Origin: Ligula intestinalis
Lineage: Eukaryota; Platyhelminthes; Cestoda; Diphyllobothriidea; Diphyllobothriidae
Assembly (NCBI GenBank): GCA_036362985.1
Contig: JAYGXS010000006.1
Coordinates: forward strand, 16,097,972-16,161,971
Direction: 5' to 3'
Length of the DNA stretch: 64,000 nucleotides
Shown piece after piece: positions 1 to 60,350 of this stretch. Every line of letters starts with the position of its first letter. The first letter of the stretch is position 1. The position numbers were made by a program, and so were the translations under genes. The notes beneath the pieces are model-generated. The model saw only the letters and a list, made by a program, of their open reading frames with translations. It was not told where the DNA came from and did no database searches.

Positions 1-974
1 CTACTATCTTCCTAAGCAGTTTTTTTCTCTCGCACACTTTTTGAACATGGAGGCCCGTTGAACAATGTCTCCATTTTCACTGTAAGAGTTTTTTTTAACT
101 GCCATAATTTTTCGTTTTTAGTTCAAAATTACCTGCAAAACATTGCTAATGTTGCCCCAACAGGACAATTTCTGCTGACATTATTACGACTTTCTACGTC
201 TACTTGCACATATTGTCAAATTATTTTTGAATTTTTATGCTTTCGAAATAACTTTGTATAGATAGCGCCGTACCGGCGCTGAAAAATATAAATTACAAAT
301 TCCAAAGTGTAGGGTATGAAATATAAGAGGAGACTGTAAAGAAAAATTTAGTGGGACTTGAGATGAACAAGTATTATGTAACTAGATTGGCCACCCTCAT
401 TACGTTCTGTCCCACCAGATCGCAGTCCACTTCTTTTGGCATTTAGCTGCACACTGAACAATCAGCATCCATCCGCGTTGAGAGTGTTACTCACAATCAG
501 TTCTAGGTCATGTTGGCGAGGTGAGTCAGCAATCTGTTTTTCCTCCGATTGCGCTTCCTTGAACAAGTTACCTCGTAATGGCGGTTTGGGTTAAGTAAGA
601 TACCTTAGAAGTATTGCTCATTCTGCAATATTGGCTGATGATTGTAGAGACTTGGCAAAATTTCTGATTCGCAACCCTTGAGGTGTCGTGCTTGTCAGCA
701 ATTTAATCGAGATTTCGAAGGTGAATTTGAGGGTAGATGCGTGTATAATTCTCTCATCAGAGGCACACTGACGTGCTTGGGGTGAGGTGGGGTCATTAAA
801 CATAAACTTTAGTTCCTTAAACAGATAGCATGGTCAACAAAGACAAGAGAGAATGTAATGACTATTTATGGTTCATTAGGCGTCAGCACTCAGTCATACG
901 CAACCCTAAATGATGACCCACACATGGTTATTGAAGGTTCATCAACGAGCGTCAATATCACCCGCTCTAAACCG

Positions 975-4690: not shown

Positions 4691-6143
4691 GAGCTGCTAC
4701 CAAGTCAAGTCAAGTTTATTAAAGGAAATAAAAGCAAATGCCTTTGAACTCCCTATTGGCACATTGTATTGAATAAATGCATCGGCACAGCCGAACATTT
4801 CAAAGAAGTCGTTTACATAATTGTAGGCGACTACTCGTTTGTTTCAAGTAATACTATCACATATGATAATGTCTGCTAACACGAACCAGCAGTGTAACTG
4901 AACGAGAAGAGCAGACATCTACCTCCAAAGGGGAGACCACAAGGGGAGACCTCCGAGGAGACCACAAAGTCACGAGAACGTCCCCAAGAACCGGAGATGC
5001 GACCATTATACGTCCTTGCTGTGATAAGAGCAGGGGAACCCACCCCGTTTTCAGCAGTGGATACGATAAAGAGCGTGACTGGGCCACGTAGCCTAGGACC
5101 ATAGGTGCGGTTGATGCGACTGCAGACGCGATCAGTGCAGTTCGCATAGTGAGAAGAGAAGTTTGATATGGCAAGGTACGGTGAAAACATATTTTGATTA
5201 AATAATAGTAATACAACTTCAAAATTACTTTAAGTATATATTTATAGCATTTAAACGATCGTTCAGTGTTTTGTTTAGGAGAACTCAGTTGCCGTGGTGG
5301 TCAAACTTTGTCTTAAAGATGTCCACGGATGGGGACATTACAATGTCCGCAGGGAGGGCGTTCCATGCCTGAATTAAACTCTTAGAGAAAAATAATTTTC
5401 TGGGGTCAAGTCTTGCCCCAGTCACACGTAATTTTAGAGGGTGTCCTCGCAGCCTAGAGGTGGTGGCCTGCTCATAGAAGTCATTTCTTTCGAGGCAAAA
5501 ATCCTGACTGCGCAGCATGCGAAATGCCTGGATTAGGTCACCGCGTAGCTGCCTGTAATCTAGAGGAAACGAGTCAACATTTACCAATCGGGTCTCATAA
5601 GGGAGGTTCCATTGGCCTCGTACTAATTTTGCTGCGTGTCTTTGTACCCTTTCAAGGGTTTTTTCGGTCTTTGGCTGTTTACGGTCTCCAGGCTTGGATG
5701 GCAAATTCCAGTTGGGGTCGCATGAAAGTGCCAAAGACCTTGCTAAAGACTACTTTATCAAACTTAGCAAAGGTGCGCTTGATTAGACGAAAGCTGGACA
5801 TTGCGGATTTGGCCACCTTTAAGCAGTGGACTGATGGCTTTAGTGAAGGCGTGAACCACACCTCTAGGTCCTTCTGAGCCTCTACCTCTGGCAGCGGCGT
5901 GCGATTAAGGTAATACACCCTCCGTGGTGCAGTTCTGGTTCTACTGAATCGCATTACGTTGCATTTGGCCACATTGAATAGCATGAGCTAAAGGTTCGAC
6001 CATTGCTCCAGTCGATGCAAATTTGCCTGGAGATTTAAGTCATTGTTTTCGTTGCGTATGACCTTCCAAAATTTTAGGTCATCAGCAAATATAACGATTT
6101 CGCAGTCTATTCCGCTTGTGTAGGTATCAATATATATATATAT

Positions 6144-7116
6144 TCACTCAGAGAGAATATATATTCGATCAGCAGTGACAGCAAGTGACAGGTGGCGAGG
6201 CGCTGATGAACTGCAGTTCGATGAAGTGTTTATGACCCATCTGATAGACACCAGTGGTGGACCAACTGCGCCGTCTGTAAGTGCGTTTGTTTGTGTTGTC
6301 CGACCAGCTGGTGTTCAGGGTTATGCTTGGCTGATGAAGGCTAAAAAGCCCGAAACAGTTCTGTATCAAGTTACCCCCAGATGCTCTCATACCCCACTTA
6401 CTGCTATTATGACTTAGCCGGCATCGGCCTGGCAGGCGGTCACCCGTTGGGGACCTCTGACCACCATATGAACTTTGTTTAGTTCGGAAGCCTATACGAT
6501 CGGTGTTCGCACATTCCTGAGTGAATATATACCCAATCAGCAGTGACAGCAAATGGCAGGTGGCGAGGCGCTGATGAACTGCGTTTCGATGAAGTGTTTA
6601 TGTACCATCATTAAGACACCAGTAGTGGACCAACTGCGCCTTCTGTGAGTGCGTTTGTTTTTTTTGTCTGACCAGTTGCTGTTTAGGATAATGTTTGGCT
6701 GATGGAGGCTAATAAGCCCGAATGAGTTCTGTATCATGTTACCCCTAAATGTCGTCATATCCCCCTTACTGCTATTATGACGTGGCCATAATCGGCCTGG
6801 CAGGCGGTCACCCGTTGGGGACCTCTGACCACCACATGAACTTTGTTTAGCTCGGAAGCCTATTCGATCGGTGTTCGCACATTCCTGAGTGAATATATAC
6901 CCGATCAGCAGTGACAGCAAATGGCAGGTGGCGAGGCGCTGATGAACTGCGGTTCGATGAAGTGCTTTTGACCCATCTGATAGACTCCAGTGGTGGACTA
7001 ACTGCGCCATCTGAAAGTGCGTTTGTTTGTGTTGTCCGATCAGCTGGTGTTCAGGGTAATGCTTGGCTGATGAAGGCTAATAAGCCCCCCAGATACTCTC
7101 ATACCCCACTTACTGC
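6144..7116 (+). mobile_element. Retrozyme-like tandem repeat, 368-bp units, nested in a LINE
   Basis: The word AGCAGTGACA recurs at 6171, 6539 and 6907, giving two successive periods of exactly 368 bases. The array holds about 2.6 units. The third ends abruptly at TACTGC before a TA run at 7117-7128; a matching TA run lies at 6130-6143. Both runs sit where the host LINE should encode contiguous reverse transcriptase, so they look like a duplicated target. Unit 1 has an intact hammerhead core (separate entry). Unit 2 has core mutations. Unit 3 has lost about 22 bases including GAAA. Tandem hammerhead monomers of this length resemble the non-autonomous retrozymes known from plants and animals; mobilisation by a PLE is inference. 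Confidence 0.75.
6318..6376 (+). ncRNA. Type I hammerhead ribozyme (predicted)
   Basis: The core is CTGATGA at 6331-6337 and GAAA at 6352-6355. Stem II is GGCT (6339-6342) with AGCC (6347-6350), loop AAAA. Stem III is ACAG (6355-6358) with CTGT (6361-6364), loop TT. The cleavage position is A6365, in the context GTA. Stem I pairs GCTTGG (6325-6330) with TCAAGT (6366-6371), then an internal loop (TTAT/TA) and GGG/CCC. The one departure from consensus is an A-C apposition at the base of stem II (6338 and 6351), where G-C is usual and which could weaken cleavage. The fold was derived by hand. Confidence 0.75.
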
Positions 7117-7569
7117 TATATATATATAAAGAAGAAGAAAGGACCAATAACGGAACCCTGGGGAACCTTGCTCTCAACCTCTACCTTCGCCTACCGCTGT
7201 TGGCCAAGACGTACCGTCTGGGTACGACCAGTCAAGAAGTTTTCGATCTACTGCAAAAGGTTTCCCTTACCCCTATATGGCTGAGCTTTATAGGAGATGT
7301 TGAGGAGGCACAGTGTTAAACGCCTTCTTGAAGTCTACGAAGACTGTATGCACCTTTTTCCTTTCATAGAGCGCTCATGTCCATTGTTCTAGACAAAAGA
7401 GCAGATTGGTCAAGCAGGAATCCATGCTGCTTGTCATAAAGAAGTTGATATTGCTCCAAAGGTGCATCAGCTTGCGTTTGACTATGCATTTCATGAGTTT
7501 GCAGGATACTGAGGTGAGGCTGACCGGTCTGTTGTTATTTGCGGTCGTCCACCTTGGTCACACTATCTG

Positions 7570-16635: not shown

Positions 16636-16654
16636 AGCATGCCAAACGCCTAGA

Positions 16655-16700
16655 GTTTTTCACACTTGGGTCAACTCAAATTAAGCAAATCTGCCAAACC
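16655..16700 (+). repeat. SINE family B, 3' fragment
   Basis: The run TTGGGTCAACTCAAATTAAG followed by CAAATCTGCCAAACC is identical or nearly so to the 3' part of the family B copy at 35575-35620. Only the tail is present. Confidence 0.55.
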
Positions 16701-18264: not shown

Positions 18265-18440
18265 GTCTCATATTTCGGGCCCTGACAGCAGCCGCATTGG
18301 CTAGTAGTCCAGACAGTATTTCCGACAAAAACAAGGGAGACTAGAGTGGCTATTTCTAACTTATTAGCCATCGTCAGCTAGTCATACCCAACCACAAGTA
18401 ATGCACAGCCCGATGCTCGAACTCGAGTGCAATTCCACGT
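18265..18440 (-). repeat. tRNA-derived SINE (family A), truncated inverted copy
   Basis: On the minus strand the words GAGTTCGAGCATCGGG, GGTTGGGTATGACTAGCTGA and GATGGCTAATAAG appear in the same order as in the inverted copy at 60.06-60.35 kb. The tRNA-like 5' head is mostly missing. Confidence 0.5.
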
Positions 18441-20027: not shown

Positions 20028-20180
20028 TTTGGGGTGACCCAATTGTGAAAAAACTCGAGGCGTTCGGCGGGATTAGATTCATGGCGCCAGGTGGGGTGTT
20101 TGTAGCTCAGTGGTTAGAGCGTTGGCTTCCGGTAAAAGACCTTCTCTATAACTCATCGTGCAGAAGTTCTTCGGATAAAG
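20028..20180 (+). repeat. SINE family B copy with inverted 3' segment
   Basis: 20098-20140 carries the tRNA-like head TAGCTCAGTGGTTAGAGC followed by TTGGCTTCCGGTAAA. It is immediately preceded (20030-20085) by the reverse complement of the sequence that follows the head in the 35.5-kb copy (GGGTGACCCAATTGTG... with TCGAGGCG and GGCGGGATTAGATTC). The copy is therefore rearranged: tail inverted in front of head. Confidence 0.6.
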
Positions 20181-26370: not shown

Positions 26371-26374
26371 CATA

Positions 26375-27223
26375 GATAAGGAAGAGAGATTGTCGAGCAC
26401 TGGTTCAATTTTTTATCATGAGCTTTCGAACTCTTACAGGAGTCCATCGTCATAGATAAGAAACAGCAGCAAAAGGAGTTGATTATATTGTGTGTACACC
26501 AATCAACTGTCAAGGGTCCTCAGGTCATGATGGGTAAGAAGCAGTCATGAGAAAGGCGGGGAAAGGGTGGGGACTATTACAGAGGCATGCGTTTATTAAC
26601 TGTCAGTGATGTCAGCGTTCGTCAGGGGGTCAGGAACGAAAATGGGGCTATAAAAGTGCATGTGGGACCAATTAACTGTGATGGACGTCTGGGCGTGATC
26701 GTACGTGATTGTGCAAGACTCTGTAAGCCGGTACCAATTTTATACATCGGTTTATTGAACGCTCATCCGTGGAACAGACTTCAATCAATTCTCTGCTCGT
26801 CATGTTTTTGGAATGGGCGAGTACACTGAAGGCCTGTTTCATAGATGTGAGTTGGAATCAACTGAGGTATCCTATTGGCGCCGGCTTACAGAGTCTTGCA
26901 CAATCACGTACAGTCAAGCCCAGAAGTCCATCACAGTTAATTGGTCCCACATTTTCGTTGCTGACCCCCTGACAAACGTTTATATCACTCACAGTTAATA
27001 AACGCATGCCTCTATAGTTGTCCCCACCCTACCCCCACCTTTCTCATGGCTGCTTCTTACCCCTTACAACCTGGCGACCCTTGACAGTTGATTGGTGTTC
27101 ACACAATATAATCAGCCTCTTTTGTTGCTGGTTCTTATCTCTGACGATGGACTCCTGTAAGAGTTCGAAAGCTCATGATAATAAACAACGTGAACCGGTG
27201 CTCGACAATCTCTCTTCCTTATC
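26375..27223. repeat. Fold-back palindrome, 849 bp, arms of about 420 bp
   Basis: The left end GATAAGGAAGAGAGATTGTC is answered at the right end by its reverse complement at 27204-27223. Matching inverted pairs continue inward: AGCTTTCGAACTCTTACAGG at 26421 with CCTGTAAGAGTTCGAAAGCT at 27154, and ACCAATTAACTGTGATGG with CCATCACAGTTAATTGGT. Pairing continues, with more mismatches, nearly to the centre at about 26799, so there is essentially no spacer. Each arm carries a hammerhead-like block near its outer end. The whole could be a fold-back transposon or a head-to-head pair of one short element. Confidence 0.8.
27141..27175 (+). ncRNA. Hammerhead-like motif in palindrome arm (incomplete)
   Basis: CTGACGA (27141-27147) is a known variant of the hammerhead core. 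It is followed by hairpin GGACTC-CTGTAA-GAGTTC and then GAAA (27167-27170) and GCTC. The would-be stem III is the self-complementary tetramer AGCT with no loop, so it could only pair between two molecules or two copies. The mirrored motif in the left arm reads ATGACGA and lacks the first core C. Confidence 0.35.
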
Positions 27224-27229
27224 CATTAC

Positions 27230-35484: not shown

Positions 35485-35625
35485 TGGGGTGTTTGTAGCT
35501 CAGTGATTAGAGCATTGGCTTCCGGTAAAGGCCTTCTCTAATACGCGGGTTGAAATCCTGCCGAACCCCTCGATTTTTTCACAATTGGGTCAACTCAAAT
35601 TAAGCAAATCTGCCAAACCTCTAAA
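35485..35625 (+). repeat. tRNA-derived SINE (family B), best copy
   Basis: TAGCTCAGTGATTAGAGC (A-box region) and GCGGGTTGAAATCCTGCC (B-box region) lie about 45 bases apart and are closed by GGGGTG...CGAACCCC, an acceptor-stem-like pairing. The SINE body CAATTGGGTCAACTCAAATT follows. The anticodon arm is not well formed, so it is a SINE head rather than a working tRNA gene. Confidence 0.65.
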
Positions 35626-40989: not shown

Positions 40990-43310
40990 CTACCAGCTGC
41001 TATGGATAATGATTGCGATTGCTTAGCCATTGCTGAGGTTTACTACACTTTTGGTTCAACAGCTTAACAGCTTAATTGCAAAGTGCACGATAAAGGAGCC
41101 CACGCAATATTATTCTCAACTAAGGTGTAAATAAGTCATCGATTGTTGATCTGCCTTTGAGAAATCTAACACCCCTGACTTCAGTAGTGCATTAACCACT
41201 TTCATTTTTCCAAATGAACGATAACTGAATTTGTTTAAATAGAGATTAAGGTTGCTGGCCCTGAGCAAATGAGCCAATTCACGCCTCAAAGACCGGGTGA
41301 ATTTCTGTCTTATTTTGTGCGTTTAACGTTTGGACACTCAAGGACCGAAAAAAACTCCGAGGCGTTGGCAAAACCATTAATCCGTTACAACGAGTCCTTC
41401 CTTCGCCAAAAACTCTTACCTACTACTTACTAATATGCACTTCTCTTGTGAGAAACGAAAAGGAGAGTAGAGTTGGAATAATTAAGGAGAATGCTGTGAC
41501 GGATGTGAGAACGAACTTGGTTTCGAGACGTGACTGAGCCGGCGAGAATAAGGCTTAACGAAAAAATTGTCACAATAAGCAACCGCTGGCTACAAATCCT
41601 CTTCTAAAGTTGTCTGACGCTACGGTGCTGAGTAACCAGTGCACATTTCCGTTCTCATCCACAAGAGTAAAAATGCAAACTAATACCACTGGCAAAAACA
41701 AGGGTGACTGGAATGACTATTTCTGACATTGGTTGTGGCTAACTGATGATAATTACCAATAACAGCGAATATGGTCATTTTAGTCGCCCTCATCTTCGGA
41801 GATGGTTTCGGCTTTACTCATAAATGAAAGGAAATTTAGAAAACGTGAATTGCGAATGCAGTGACTCACAACTTCAACGACGATTATATTATTTTTTTGT
41901 TGCTAAGGTGAAAGGTGGGTATGACATGGAAATAGGGACCACAGTTATTGCAAATGGCTCTTGCCTATATTTTGGGGGACTGGAGTCAGGGTTCTGGTTA
42001 GTGATAGAGCTATTGCTAGAGCTATGACGTTTATAATGAGGGAAAGGATCCGGTTTAGGTTAATGAGGATTCGGGGTTCGGTTAGGAATATAGTTTGGAA
42101 ATGTGATAAGACACCAGCCGGAAATCTAGGGCTATGTCAAGTACAGCACTGAGAGTGAGTCCGAATTCTCTTATATGCGCAAAAAGTGATGCGGTAAGCT
42201 TCTTTGTGAGACGAAAGTGACCATTATTTTCGCTATTTCTATAACACTCTCTTGTATCCTCTGACTTGAATCTGAGAATACAATCACTGAAAGCATACCA
42301 ACCGTTCATATATCATTGACGATTGATTGATTGGAAGCCAATTCATTTTGACTTTCTGTCGAGGGGATTACTGATGTTAACGTACTCCTTCCTACGTACC
42401 GCTTAAACCATCATGACATGTCTGTTTGACCTCTTCCCGCGTAGTTATATTAGAATCAGGCTTTTGTTTCCATAGTCAGCAGTCATACTACCATGCAGGA
42501 GTTGACTAAATTTTGTATTCTTTTTTTAAAGTGGAATTTAAAAAATGAGCAGATATTTTTTCCATGATGCTCACGCTTTGTACTTTTAAATACGCCTGCA
42601 TTATCTTTTCTTAAACAAGAAACCTACTTCCAGTCTGTTTTTCCTTACTTGCTTAGGGGTCTGGATTGGTCTTTTGAAAACGATCAGCCATTATGTGGTT
42701 TTATGGGCAGCTGAATAACTGTTTACCTCGCAAAGACTGATAATATTTCCACGGATGTGGCTACGTTCCAAAAGTAGGGCTGTTAACTTTGACAGCTTGT
42801 TAAATCGTTTAATTCCCGTTCTCCAGATCACTAAGGTAGAGTATATTTTTCCAGTATAATTGCGATATTTAAGAAGCACAAATGCGCCCGATACTAAGCA
42901 ACTAACTTAACCATTAGTCCAGCTGCATGTTCGGACTTAACATCATAATATGAAAATCGATAACCGGAACTTTGTAAGTTTTCGCACGTCAGTTTTGTTC
43001 TTGCAGTCTTTCCGGTACCTACATTTACCCTGTACGTGAGTGGGCATAATCTACTGAATAAAATGAACACGAAAAAAGTTTGAAAACAATAAACCTCGAC
43101 AGTAAATAATACGCTTTGGCAACGGTCCCTTATGTAAGCCCAGCTAGCCACCGCTGACCCAGGTATCGTGTTTAACGGAAATATTCGTAAGAGCGGAAAA
43201 GCAGCAAAATATATGCAAGAAAACCTAAGAAATAAATGCATTTTCTACAAATTTATTCCCCTTAGCCTATAGATGAAAACAAACTTGACCCTGATAATTT
43301 AAAAATAAAA
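40990..43310. other. Unassigned intronic sequence
   Basis: 41690-41770 resembles the 3' part of SINE family A (minus). 41995-42095 is rich in TTAGG-type words. No gene supported; open frames at 42894-43241 and elsewhere lack motifs. Confidence 0.4.
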
Positions 43311-43311
43311 A

Positions 43312-44795
43312 AACACTATTCACCAATGTACCCGTGGCAGAAACCATAAACTACCTCTGCGACGTTATTCGGGCCACGAACTACCAGATAGGTATGCCCG
43401 TGAAAACCCTCAAAGATCTCCTCACGCGATGCACACAAAATGTCCAATTTCTCTGCAATGGTCAGTTCTACAGACAGATTGATGGTGTGGCGATGGGCTC
43501 ACCACTTGGACCGTTTCTTGCAAATGTCTTTATGGGCAAGATCGAGAAAACGAGTCTAGGGGACACCATCAATGACCTTGCATTCTACGGTCGATATGTA
43601 GATGATATCTTCTGTTTGACTGACTATAACACTGACATTGATGCCTTGGTCGCGAAGTTTAACAACGCTCACCCATCGCTCAAGTTTTCTGCTGAGACTG
43701 AAGTGGACGATGAAATTGCGTTCCTTGACGTCCTTCTGCGAAGGCAAGAGGATGGATCTATCCTACGCAGGGTTTTCCGAAAGAAAACCTGGACAGGACA
43801 ATACACTAACTTCCACAGTTTTGTCCCCCTCAATATAAAACGAAATCTGGTCCAAGGATTAGCAGCTAGAATACGACAGATCTGTTCTCCTGAAACTGTC
43901 GAAGCAGAACTCCAACAGCTGCAGCATACACTAATTGAAAATGGATACCCGGAAAGGTTCATTCGCAGAAATATTGGTGAACGCGCCAAAAAGCCTGTCA
44001 CCTTAACTGCAGAAAAGAAAGACGTGTTCATAAGACTGCCTTTCTTAGGCGATGCAACCAGCGAGCTGGTCAGACGACGCTTGAGGACTGCAATCACAAA
44101 CGCTTTCCCAGCGGCGAACTTACGGGTGCTCTTCACGAACTCTCCCCTCCTACGATTGGGAGGTAAAGACAGACTCCCTTTGAAGGCCACATCAATGTGC
44201 ATTTACTCTTTCACTTGCTCCTGTGGAGCGGGATACATAGGCCGTACAACGAGGCGTCTCGAAAAGAGGGTGCGTGAGCACATACCGACCTGGCTAAGTA
44301 AAGGTGAAACTAGATCGATCTCGAGTGCTATTCTCGCACATCTAGTTGATACGAACCATCGAGTCGATACTAACGAAGCCTTTAAGGTGGTCTACAGGAC
44401 ACCATCTAATTTTTCCAAAGGCCTACGCCAACGGATGCTTGCTACAGCCGAAGCAGTGGCTATAAGGCTAGCAAATCCAGTGCTGTGTTGTCAGAAGACT
44501 CTGACACAAGCTCTGTCACTTCCATGGCCTAAACCGACACCAGGTGGCGATAGGATTTCGCCCCTCCCCACAAGTGACAATCCCTCAACCAACAGGCTGA
44601 CATGGCCTACATGCGCAAACTGACTTAGTCCGCGTTGGCCAATTAGCGCCCGTGTTAGATAGTTATTGATTTTTCTACCTATTCAAACTTTTATTGTTAT
44701 GTACAGCGTCAATTTCCCTTGCAAACGTTTGGTCTGATGAAGAGTTGCTGAAAACAATTGTTTGCCAAAAAAACTGACTTCTTAATCGATAAATG
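43312..44795 (+). mobile_element. Penelope-like element, 5'-truncated, uninterrupted RT + GIY-YIG frame
   Basis: A single open frame runs to a stop at 44621-44623 (429 codons from a GTG at 43334; homology begins slightly upstream at LFTNVPV, about 43312). RT boxes: QIDGVAMGSPLGPFLANVFM, the intact catalytic GRYVDDIFCL, FLDVLLRRQEDGS, RKKTWTGQYTNFHSFVPL. The GIY-YIG endonuclease follows: SMCIYSFTCSC, GAGYIGRTTRR, RVREHIPTWL, SSAILAHLVDTNHRVD, LATAEAVAIRLANPVLC. The N-terminal RT half is absent. A 3' UTR ends at 44735-44795 with CTGATGAAGAGTTGCTGAAA. The absence of stops suggests a young insertion. It lies in the large intron, antisense to the host gene. Confidence 0.9.
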
Positions 44796-60057: not shown

Positions 60058-60350
60058 CACCTTAGAATGACACCCATTGATTAAACTCCACTGATCGCTG
60101 ATGGAACTCACTCGTCCCGCTCTGACTTGCGACTCATTCTCGAGGTCCGCCAACAGCCACACAGTGGCTAACAGTTTAGGCGGATTGGATTTCCGGCAAG
60201 GTTAGGGCAGACTGGAATTGCCATTTCTGGTTCATTAGCTGTCATCAGCTAGATATATCCAACCCGAGACGGTGCCCCACCCAAGGCTTGAACCCGCAAC
60301 CTTTTGATCAGAAGTCTAGCGCTTCAACCATTGAGATACGGACTCACTGT
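60058..60350 (-). repeat. tRNA-derived SINE (family A), inverted copy
   Basis: On the minus strand: GTCCGTATCTCAATGGTTGA (A-box region), TTGCGGGTTCAAGCC (B-box region), then GATATATCTAGCTGATGACA and a body ending GGGACGAGTGAGTTCC. It is collinear with the forward copy at 975-1250. The B-box is better kept here than in the forward copy. Confidence 0.65.

Follow-up and report, generated by a model that had tools for sequence, protein, structure and literature searches.

Metazoan non-LTR retrozymes are dispersed tandem repeats with units of a few hundred base pairs and a type I hammerhead, ranging from dimers to long arrays (PMC7229834; Cervera and de la Pena 2020). The class is further characterised by a G+C content under 50%, by the lack of LTRs, a primer binding site and a polypurine tract, by self-cleavage of its RNA in vitro and by linear and circular RNAs of unit length. 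The sections of that paper drawn on here name platyhelminths among the hosts of similar repeats and give target site duplications (TSDs) of more than 4 bp. They also describe the unit RNA as highly self-paired, a property that they do not set against shuffled sequences. Penelope-like elements (PLEs) are named there as a strong candidate for moving animal retrozymes, and these sections hold no evidence from insertions. Satellite-like repeats with active type I hammerheads are also described in flatworms, namely the schistosome W-elements and SMalpha, and the parts of that account used here propose mobility and a TSD for them (PMC8490949). The PLE protein PAc cuts AT-rich DNA in vitro, extends both strands and starts reverse transcription internally at defined sites, which accounts for the optional tail (PMC11167929). 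In Adineta vaga, Penelope elements have inverted pLTRs, one end of which may carry a tail. Self-priming was favoured as the source of head-to-head Penelope copies on the grounds of palindromes at the junctions (PMC3846280, in the passages relied on). Among the papers listed in literature searches, none had a title or abstract opening that described fixed start sites or head-to-head insertion for animal retrozymes.

The window is the whole 64,000-nt stretch of the Ligula intestinalis genome that was analysed. It contains an array of about 2.6 tandem units of 368 bp at 6151-7119, which is very probably a member of the retrozyme type. The array and its insertion site comprise the following features.

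5285-6143, minus strand: interrupted LINE-type reverse transcriptase (RT), C-terminal side, with FADD near 6080, stops and frameshifts
6130-6143, no strand: left (TA)n, first copy of the duplicated target, one of only two runs of at least five TA in the window
6137-6151, minus strand: inverted short arm, unit positions 152-166 reversed, overlapping the left TA run
6151-6518, plus strand: retrozyme unit 1, complete hammerhead
6316-6378, plus strand: type I hammerhead of unit 1, from an Rfam HH9 match and a descriptor
6519-6886, plus strand: retrozyme unit 2, with a broken hammerhead core (CTGATGG at 6699, GAAT)
6887-7119, plus strand: retrozyme unit 3, partial, with a 24-bp deletion and its 3' end at unit position 42
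7117-7128, no strand: right (TA)n, second copy of the duplicated target, sharing 3 nt with the CTGCTAT of the unit
7119-7440, minus strand: interrupted LINE-type RT, N-terminal side, with PQGSVIGP near 7145

The period of 368 given in the preliminary description was recovered by TRF (6151-7087, 2.5 copies, 87% match; copy starts 6151, 6519 and 6887). The array family resembles the metazoan non-LTR retrozymes in its hammerhead, which is type I by sequence, its 368-bp unit, which lies within about 150-450 bp, its copies of about 2 to 22 units and its dispersal. Target duplications, where present, are likewise longer than 4 bp (9-13 nt, in five of seven two-ended inserts). It differs from the elements in the sections of PMC7229834 used here in having A17 at the cut and an A-C pair at 10.1/11.1. 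A fixed pair of reverse transcription start sites, (TA)n targeting and head-to-head inserts were seen here and are not described for metazoan retrozymes in those sections. By description the family can be likened to the schistosome W-elements and SMalpha, as far as the portion of PMC8490949 used here describes them; the SMalpha-like relative in this genome is rather a tRNA-derived hammerhead SINE.

Two versions of the 368-bp unit had G+C contents of 0.481 and 0.503. The two ORFs of at least 120 aa in the array (142 and 179 aa, both on the minus strand) had no Pfam matches at 0.01. Self-pairing of the unit RNA showed no excess over shuffles (z about 0 and -0.9), and an A-box/B-box promoter match was weak and of a kind common by chance. 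An exact 24-mer of the unit gave no matches in viral_contigs and none in genome_contigs. Unit 2 carried 26 private changes compared to 8 and 7 in the other units (232 positions; p=9e-5), so the window copy did not arise simply by copying an identical circle three times over. The 24-bp deletion of unit 3 takes out GAAA, stem III and the cut site, and could stem from RT skipping over the folded ribozyme. It lies at about 7085 and is flanked by C runs.

A hammerhead had been claimed for all three units. The type I hammerhead is present at 6316-6378, but it is complete in unit 1 only, with CTGATGG/GAAT in unit 2 and the deletion in unit 3. In unit 1 stem I is formed by GGGU..GCUUGG and UCAAGU.ACCC, and CUGAUGA at 6331-6337 is followed by stem II, GAAA at 6352-6355 and stem III. 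The predicted cut is 3' of A6365. The best Rfam match was RF02275 Hammerhead_HH9 with 26.4 bits (E=5.9e-4 in 1.5 kb and 0.025 in the whole window), which is below the Rfam gathering score of 52. The internal loop of stem I and the A-rich loop II are similar to that model; the score, the A at H17 and the A-C at 10.1/11.1 depart from its norm. A descriptor-based ribozyme search, which had been proposed as a check, matched once when both strands of the window were scanned. The match is at 6331, within the array; the expected number was 0.03, and 3 of 100 simulations gave any match. The descriptor was written after the Rfam match had been seen and specified CTGANGA, stem II, GAA, stem III with A15.1-U16.1 and at least four pairs in stem I, with a mismatch allowed at 10.1/11.1. 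In a free fold of 6318-6378 stems I (with a UAU/U internal loop) and II were kept and stem III was paired differently (z -1.5; 18 of 200 shuffles folded equally well).

Among 140 aligned array copies the core (CTGANGA, GAA and A15.1) was intact in 91 and broken in 49. The cut base was A in 130 of the 140, and the A-C mismatch was present nearly throughout (A at 10.1 in 134, C at 11.1 in 133). From the sequence, this mismatch may slow cleavage. Unit positions 323-368, with the core and stems II and III, were the least variable bins (0.046 and 0.052); the highest variability (0.094) was at positions 1-23, where the 3' strand of stem I lies. The whole hammerhead was barely less variable than the remaining unit (0.064 compared to 0.074). 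A check of stem covariation found the pairs mostly retained and few double changes.

The array lies inside a minus-strand LINE-type RT with PQGSVIGP on one flank and FADD on the other, as had been noted. The minus-strand readings were VPQGSVIGPFFFFIYI on one side of the array and IYIDTYTSGIDCEIVIFADD on the other. When rejoined, with X for stops, the flanks matched RVT_1 (E=3e-13) and aligned gaplessly across the join to R2 retrotransposon proteins (best E 2.6e-4). The TA-rich edges were also confirmed, the (TA)n at 6130-6143 and 7117-7128 being the only TA runs of five or more units in the window. That the repeat might be a native part of the LINE, found in other LINE copies too, was rejected: it splits an RT domain that is continuous through the join, and the unit occurs in many different flanks. 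The left edge holds a feature absent from the preliminary description, a 15-bp inverted piece of the unit. This arm at 6137-6151 reads TATATATTCACTCAG and is identical at 15 of 15 positions to the reverse complement of both 6517-6531 and 6885-6899. It is read as the footprint of the other target strand, primed near site 167 of the RNA.

The genome (644,354,889 bases in 2,377 contigs) was searched with the 973-nt array. This gave 2,380 first-look candidates. Forty of them were scored, and 100 matches were listed on 14 contigs, at 39 places besides the window. The query favours copies with at least two units, and the scored loci over-represent long copies and similar ones. Thirty-five of the 39 places were fetched with their flanks for the count of ends; four long arrays were omitted, one of which was later fetched as L049. 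The search had been suggested as a means of finding monomers, dimers and flanking duplications, and it returned many dispersed multimers, some with TA-rich target duplications. At most of the 35 fetched loci the insert comprised about 2 to 4 units and was bordered by other DNA on either side.

Unit positions were numbered from the first base past the predicted cut, with window unit 1 as the reference. The AT run of unit 1 is 1 nt longer than that of units 2 and 3; "167" denotes the end of this run, and the site is resolved only to the AT run of the unit itself (about 160-167). In the window and the 35 loci, 20 of 31 readable main chains had their 3' end at 34-46 or 163-171 (observed 34-43 or 167; p=1.5e-17). 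The 5' ends were scattered, with 1 of 32 within the same unit windows (22 of 368 positions). Eleven of the 31 main chains ended outside sites 42 and 167, two of them at 368 as artefacts of the linearised query. A TA run of at least 6 nt abutted 24 of 29 ends at sites 42 and 167 and 0 of 14 other ends, counts that include several ends per locus; the background was 2.0% of 2,163 random flank positions. The 167-type junction word with (TA)n had 622 exact matches in the genome, and its reversed control had none. Site 167 had the best TA complementarity of the 368 positions (a run of 8 nt in unit 1 and 7 nt in units 2 and 3), and TA pairing could explain this site. At site 42 the pairing was 3 nt, and sites 104 and 131, with 4 nt each, had no ends.

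Among the 100 places listed for this junction word there were six pairs in which two 167-type 3' junctions pointed towards each other from either side of a single (TA)n tract, for example on C1 at 6977030-6977059, 14699805-14699832 and 25756139-25756166. In the flanks of L009, L022, L029 and L038 words recurred beside the (TA)n; one side has "cccgagatcgcc..cttctcat" and the opposite side "ttg(c/g)tgattgaagcgaaa". This suggests that the target of these four copies was a repeat with an internal (TA)n.

An inverted partner arm within 30 nt of the 5' end of the main chain was found in 12 cases among the 36 loci, in addition to the 15-nt arm of the window. Five of these 12 arms ended cleanly at site 42 or 167, and those of L010 and L021 ended there with N nearby. 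The arms of L015 and L032 ended elsewhere and those of L024, L026 and L034 met N. An insert was classed as two-ended if each of its outer ends lay at 42 or 167; there were seven, with the following outer ends.

Window: 167 and 42
L010: 167 and 42
L012: 38 and 167
L013: 42 and 42
L021: 167 and 42
L022: 167 and 42
L029: 42 and 167

L010 (N six bases from the left end), L021 (N inside) and L029 (further arms inside) were kept among the seven. L028 was excluded with its other end in N, as were L015 and L032 with the partner arm elsewhere and L024, L026 and L034 near N. Six of the seven had one site per arm (p=0.06 alone), L013 with site 42 twice being the exception. TA-rich words of 9-13 nt were common to both sides in five of the seven; none was clear in L012 and L021. 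Thirteen head-to-head joins (L009-L043) had overlaps of 1-4 nt in six cases and of 19 nt in L024, and gaps of 1-18 nt in six. In these 13 joins the two arms begin at unlike positions of the unit, which makes self-priming a less likely origin for the inverted arms; two separate primings fit the joins better. The 15-nt arm of the window is near-palindromic and fits self-priming or separate priming alike.

The PLEs of the same genome were compared. At least eight PLE fragments lie within the window, among them a young copy.

43298-44623, plus strand: young PLE, with relatives L044-L048, L050 and L051

As a query this copy gave 44,898 first-look candidates, of which 95 were scored, and 26 of these were at least 97% identical. 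L044 and L047 have open frames of 841 aa, and the PLE 3' region has a small hammerhead core of its own. The scored matches included four head-to-head pairs (L044, L045, L046 and L048). In all four, one arm had a short 3' end, at about PLE position 81-96, and the other a long 3' end that includes the tail (119-124; p=0.06); the TSDs of the pairs were 10-12 bp. The arms of L044 were 100% identical across 1,318 bp. The retrozyme likewise has PLE-style head-to-head arms with two alternative 3' ends, and when both kinds of insert were pooled the layout of one site per arm held in 10 of 11 (p=0.006).

As far as the portions of PMC3846280 and PMC11167929 used here extend, hammerhead PLEs and the retrozyme have in common copies arranged in tandem or inverted head to head, cuts in AT-rich DNA and TSDs of about 8-12 bp. 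An optional 3' tail on one inverted end, an internal start of reverse transcription and the extension of both strands are also common to the two in these sources. PLEs encode an RT and a GIY-YIG endonuclease, whereas the retrozyme encodes nothing recognised by Pfam and uses (TA)n. The start sites are about 125 nt apart in the retrozyme compared to about 30 in the PLE. PLE insertions in this genome were not at (TA)n, and no similarity beyond chance was found between the retrozyme unit and the PLE sequence. Since the array ORFs lack a Pfam-recognised RT or GIY-YIG, the retrozyme is not itself a PLE, though it inserts like one.

Other repeats were present in the window. A tRNA-derived SINE with a hammerhead module, presumably SMalpha-like, had three copies there, with L038:1250-1500 as the reference.

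837-903, minus strand: tRNA-derived SINE with hammerhead module
18321-18391, minus strand: tRNA-derived SINE with hammerhead module
60192-60262, minus strand: tRNA-derived SINE with hammerhead module

Its layout is a GGTTCGAA head followed by GGGTATGACTGGCTGATGA. Rfam reported no hammerhead at 18377, in one of the window copies. Elsewhere in the genome (TA)n lies just downstream of three copies of this SINE, in L026, L029 and L038, and the retrozyme copy L026 adjoins such a SINE (TA)n tract. About 850 bp at 26372-27226 match their own reverse complement with 81% identity, possibly a foldback element. A tRNA-like stretch within a repeat at 35489-35569 (Rfam 32.6 bits) is probably a tRNA-derived SINE; ARAGORN predicted no tRNA genes in the window, this stretch included. 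Relatives of its neighbourhood lie at 20078-20148 and 16640-16700.

The array is probably one copy of a non-autonomous family of metazoan-type non-LTR retrozymes. Its insertion probably involved priming from both target strands, in the manner of PLEs, on RNA that was either circular or an uncut multimer. This reading draws on the ribozyme sequence, the dispersal, the two clusters of 3' ends against scattered 5' ends, the (TA)n target, the head-to-head arms and the same layout in the PLEs. Genomic multimers would be transcribed and the hammerhead would cut the RNA into 368-nt units, which would close into circles; alternatively, some multimers would remain uncut. An autonomous retroelement, most likely of the Penelope type, would then cut an AT-rich or (TA)n target on both strands. 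The two strands would each prime reverse transcription at one of two internal RNA sites, which lie on the 3' side of the ribozyme cut, about 42 and about 167 nt from it. Synthesis of cDNA would go backwards past the cut site and continue round the RNA for more than one unit; the resulting two arms would then join head to head between duplicated (TA)n. We infer self-cleavage, circle formation, a PLE as the enzyme and the use of one RNA molecule by both primers. Two-ended priming in the manner of PLEs is, for its part, a likely account of the retrozyme inserts. A narrower version is offered tentatively, at somewhat less than an even chance. One RNA circle would serve two primers, each strand of the (TA)n target taking one fixed site and the cDNAs meeting head to head, and the PLE enzyme would do the same with its own RNA. 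On that version the 42/167 split between arms would follow from each site being available only once per RNA molecule.

Three other explanations were weighed. Satellite DNA spread by recombination, with the ribozyme as a relic, is highly improbable. Long arrays do exist (four among the 39 places), and L049 (499-8432) is an array of 22 units with ends lacking (TA)n, which shows that satellite-like arrays occur in this family as well. Of the 35 fetched copies, most are nevertheless short multimers flanked by other DNA; their 3' ends cluster at (TA)n, and some have duplicated targets. The suggestion raised at the outset, that the unit might be a simple satellite found only in long arrays, thus came out negative, and a pure satellite is ruled out for the short copies by the clustering of their 3' ends at TA targets. 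As to the template, with the start sites 42 and about 167 nt beyond the cut, any insert that exceeds this length reads back through the ribozyme cut. For these inserts a cut linear monomer is excluded as the template, which leaves a circle or an uncut multimer. It is less likely than not that the template was a long uncut multimeric transcript, with no RNA circle and no part for hammerhead cleavage in copying. It would accommodate the divergent unit 2 of the window with its broken core and the 49 broken cores among 140 aligned hammerheads, and PLE insertion in vitro is independent of hammerhead cleavage (PMC11167929). Mean unit distance was also no lower within loci (0.136, 144 pairs) than between loci (0.131, 4,707 pairs), values to which old long arrays contribute much; within-locus pairs differed by 1.6-5.7% in L009, L010, L012, L013, L015, L021, L022, L024 and L026. 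Against an uncut template, the nearest neighbour of a unit lay within its own locus in 31 of 92 cases (2.9 expected), and the first two units of an insert had a mean of 4.8 rare variants in common (29 loci) compared to 0.73 for random pairs. The low variability of the ribozyme stretch at 323-368 also speaks against it, although a template from a fairly homogeneous array is still compatible with these figures. A dimeric circle giving alternating units was rejected as a general rule: it fits the window copy, but units at lag 2 were closer than those at lag 1 in only 10 of 28 triples.

Twin priming leaves short overlaps at joins, and its inversion points are internal and variable. It is unlikely that a LINE of the RTE or CR1 type moved the retrozyme by ordinary target-primed reverse transcription, inserting it at (TA)n and producing the 5' inversions by twin priming. 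The (TA)n targets, together with the (TA)n beside the hammerhead-SINE copies of L026, L029 and L038, suggest one LINE-like partner. Site 167 has the top TA complementarity of all 368 positions, the 1-4 nt overlaps in six of the 13 arm joins are like those of twin priming, and the PLE insertions of this genome are not at (TA)n. Yet the inverted arms end at the same two sites as the direct arms, at the opposite site in six of seven inserts, and TA pairing at site 42 is only 3 nt. The same pattern was seen in four of four PLE pairs of this genome.

A retrozyme had already been proposed for this locus, and the new point is the insertion footprint. In the natural insertions it can be read as two preferred start sites, priming on both strands and a (TA)n target, and the genome's own PLEs provide an internal comparison. 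The PLE hypothesis can thereby be put to a direct test in the in vitro assay that already exists for PLEs. The retrozyme joins also bear on the origin of head-to-head PLEs, setting separate primings against the self-priming favoured in the passages of PMC3846280 relied on. If one RNA circle does serve two primers, this would be the insertion pathway of animal retrozymes.
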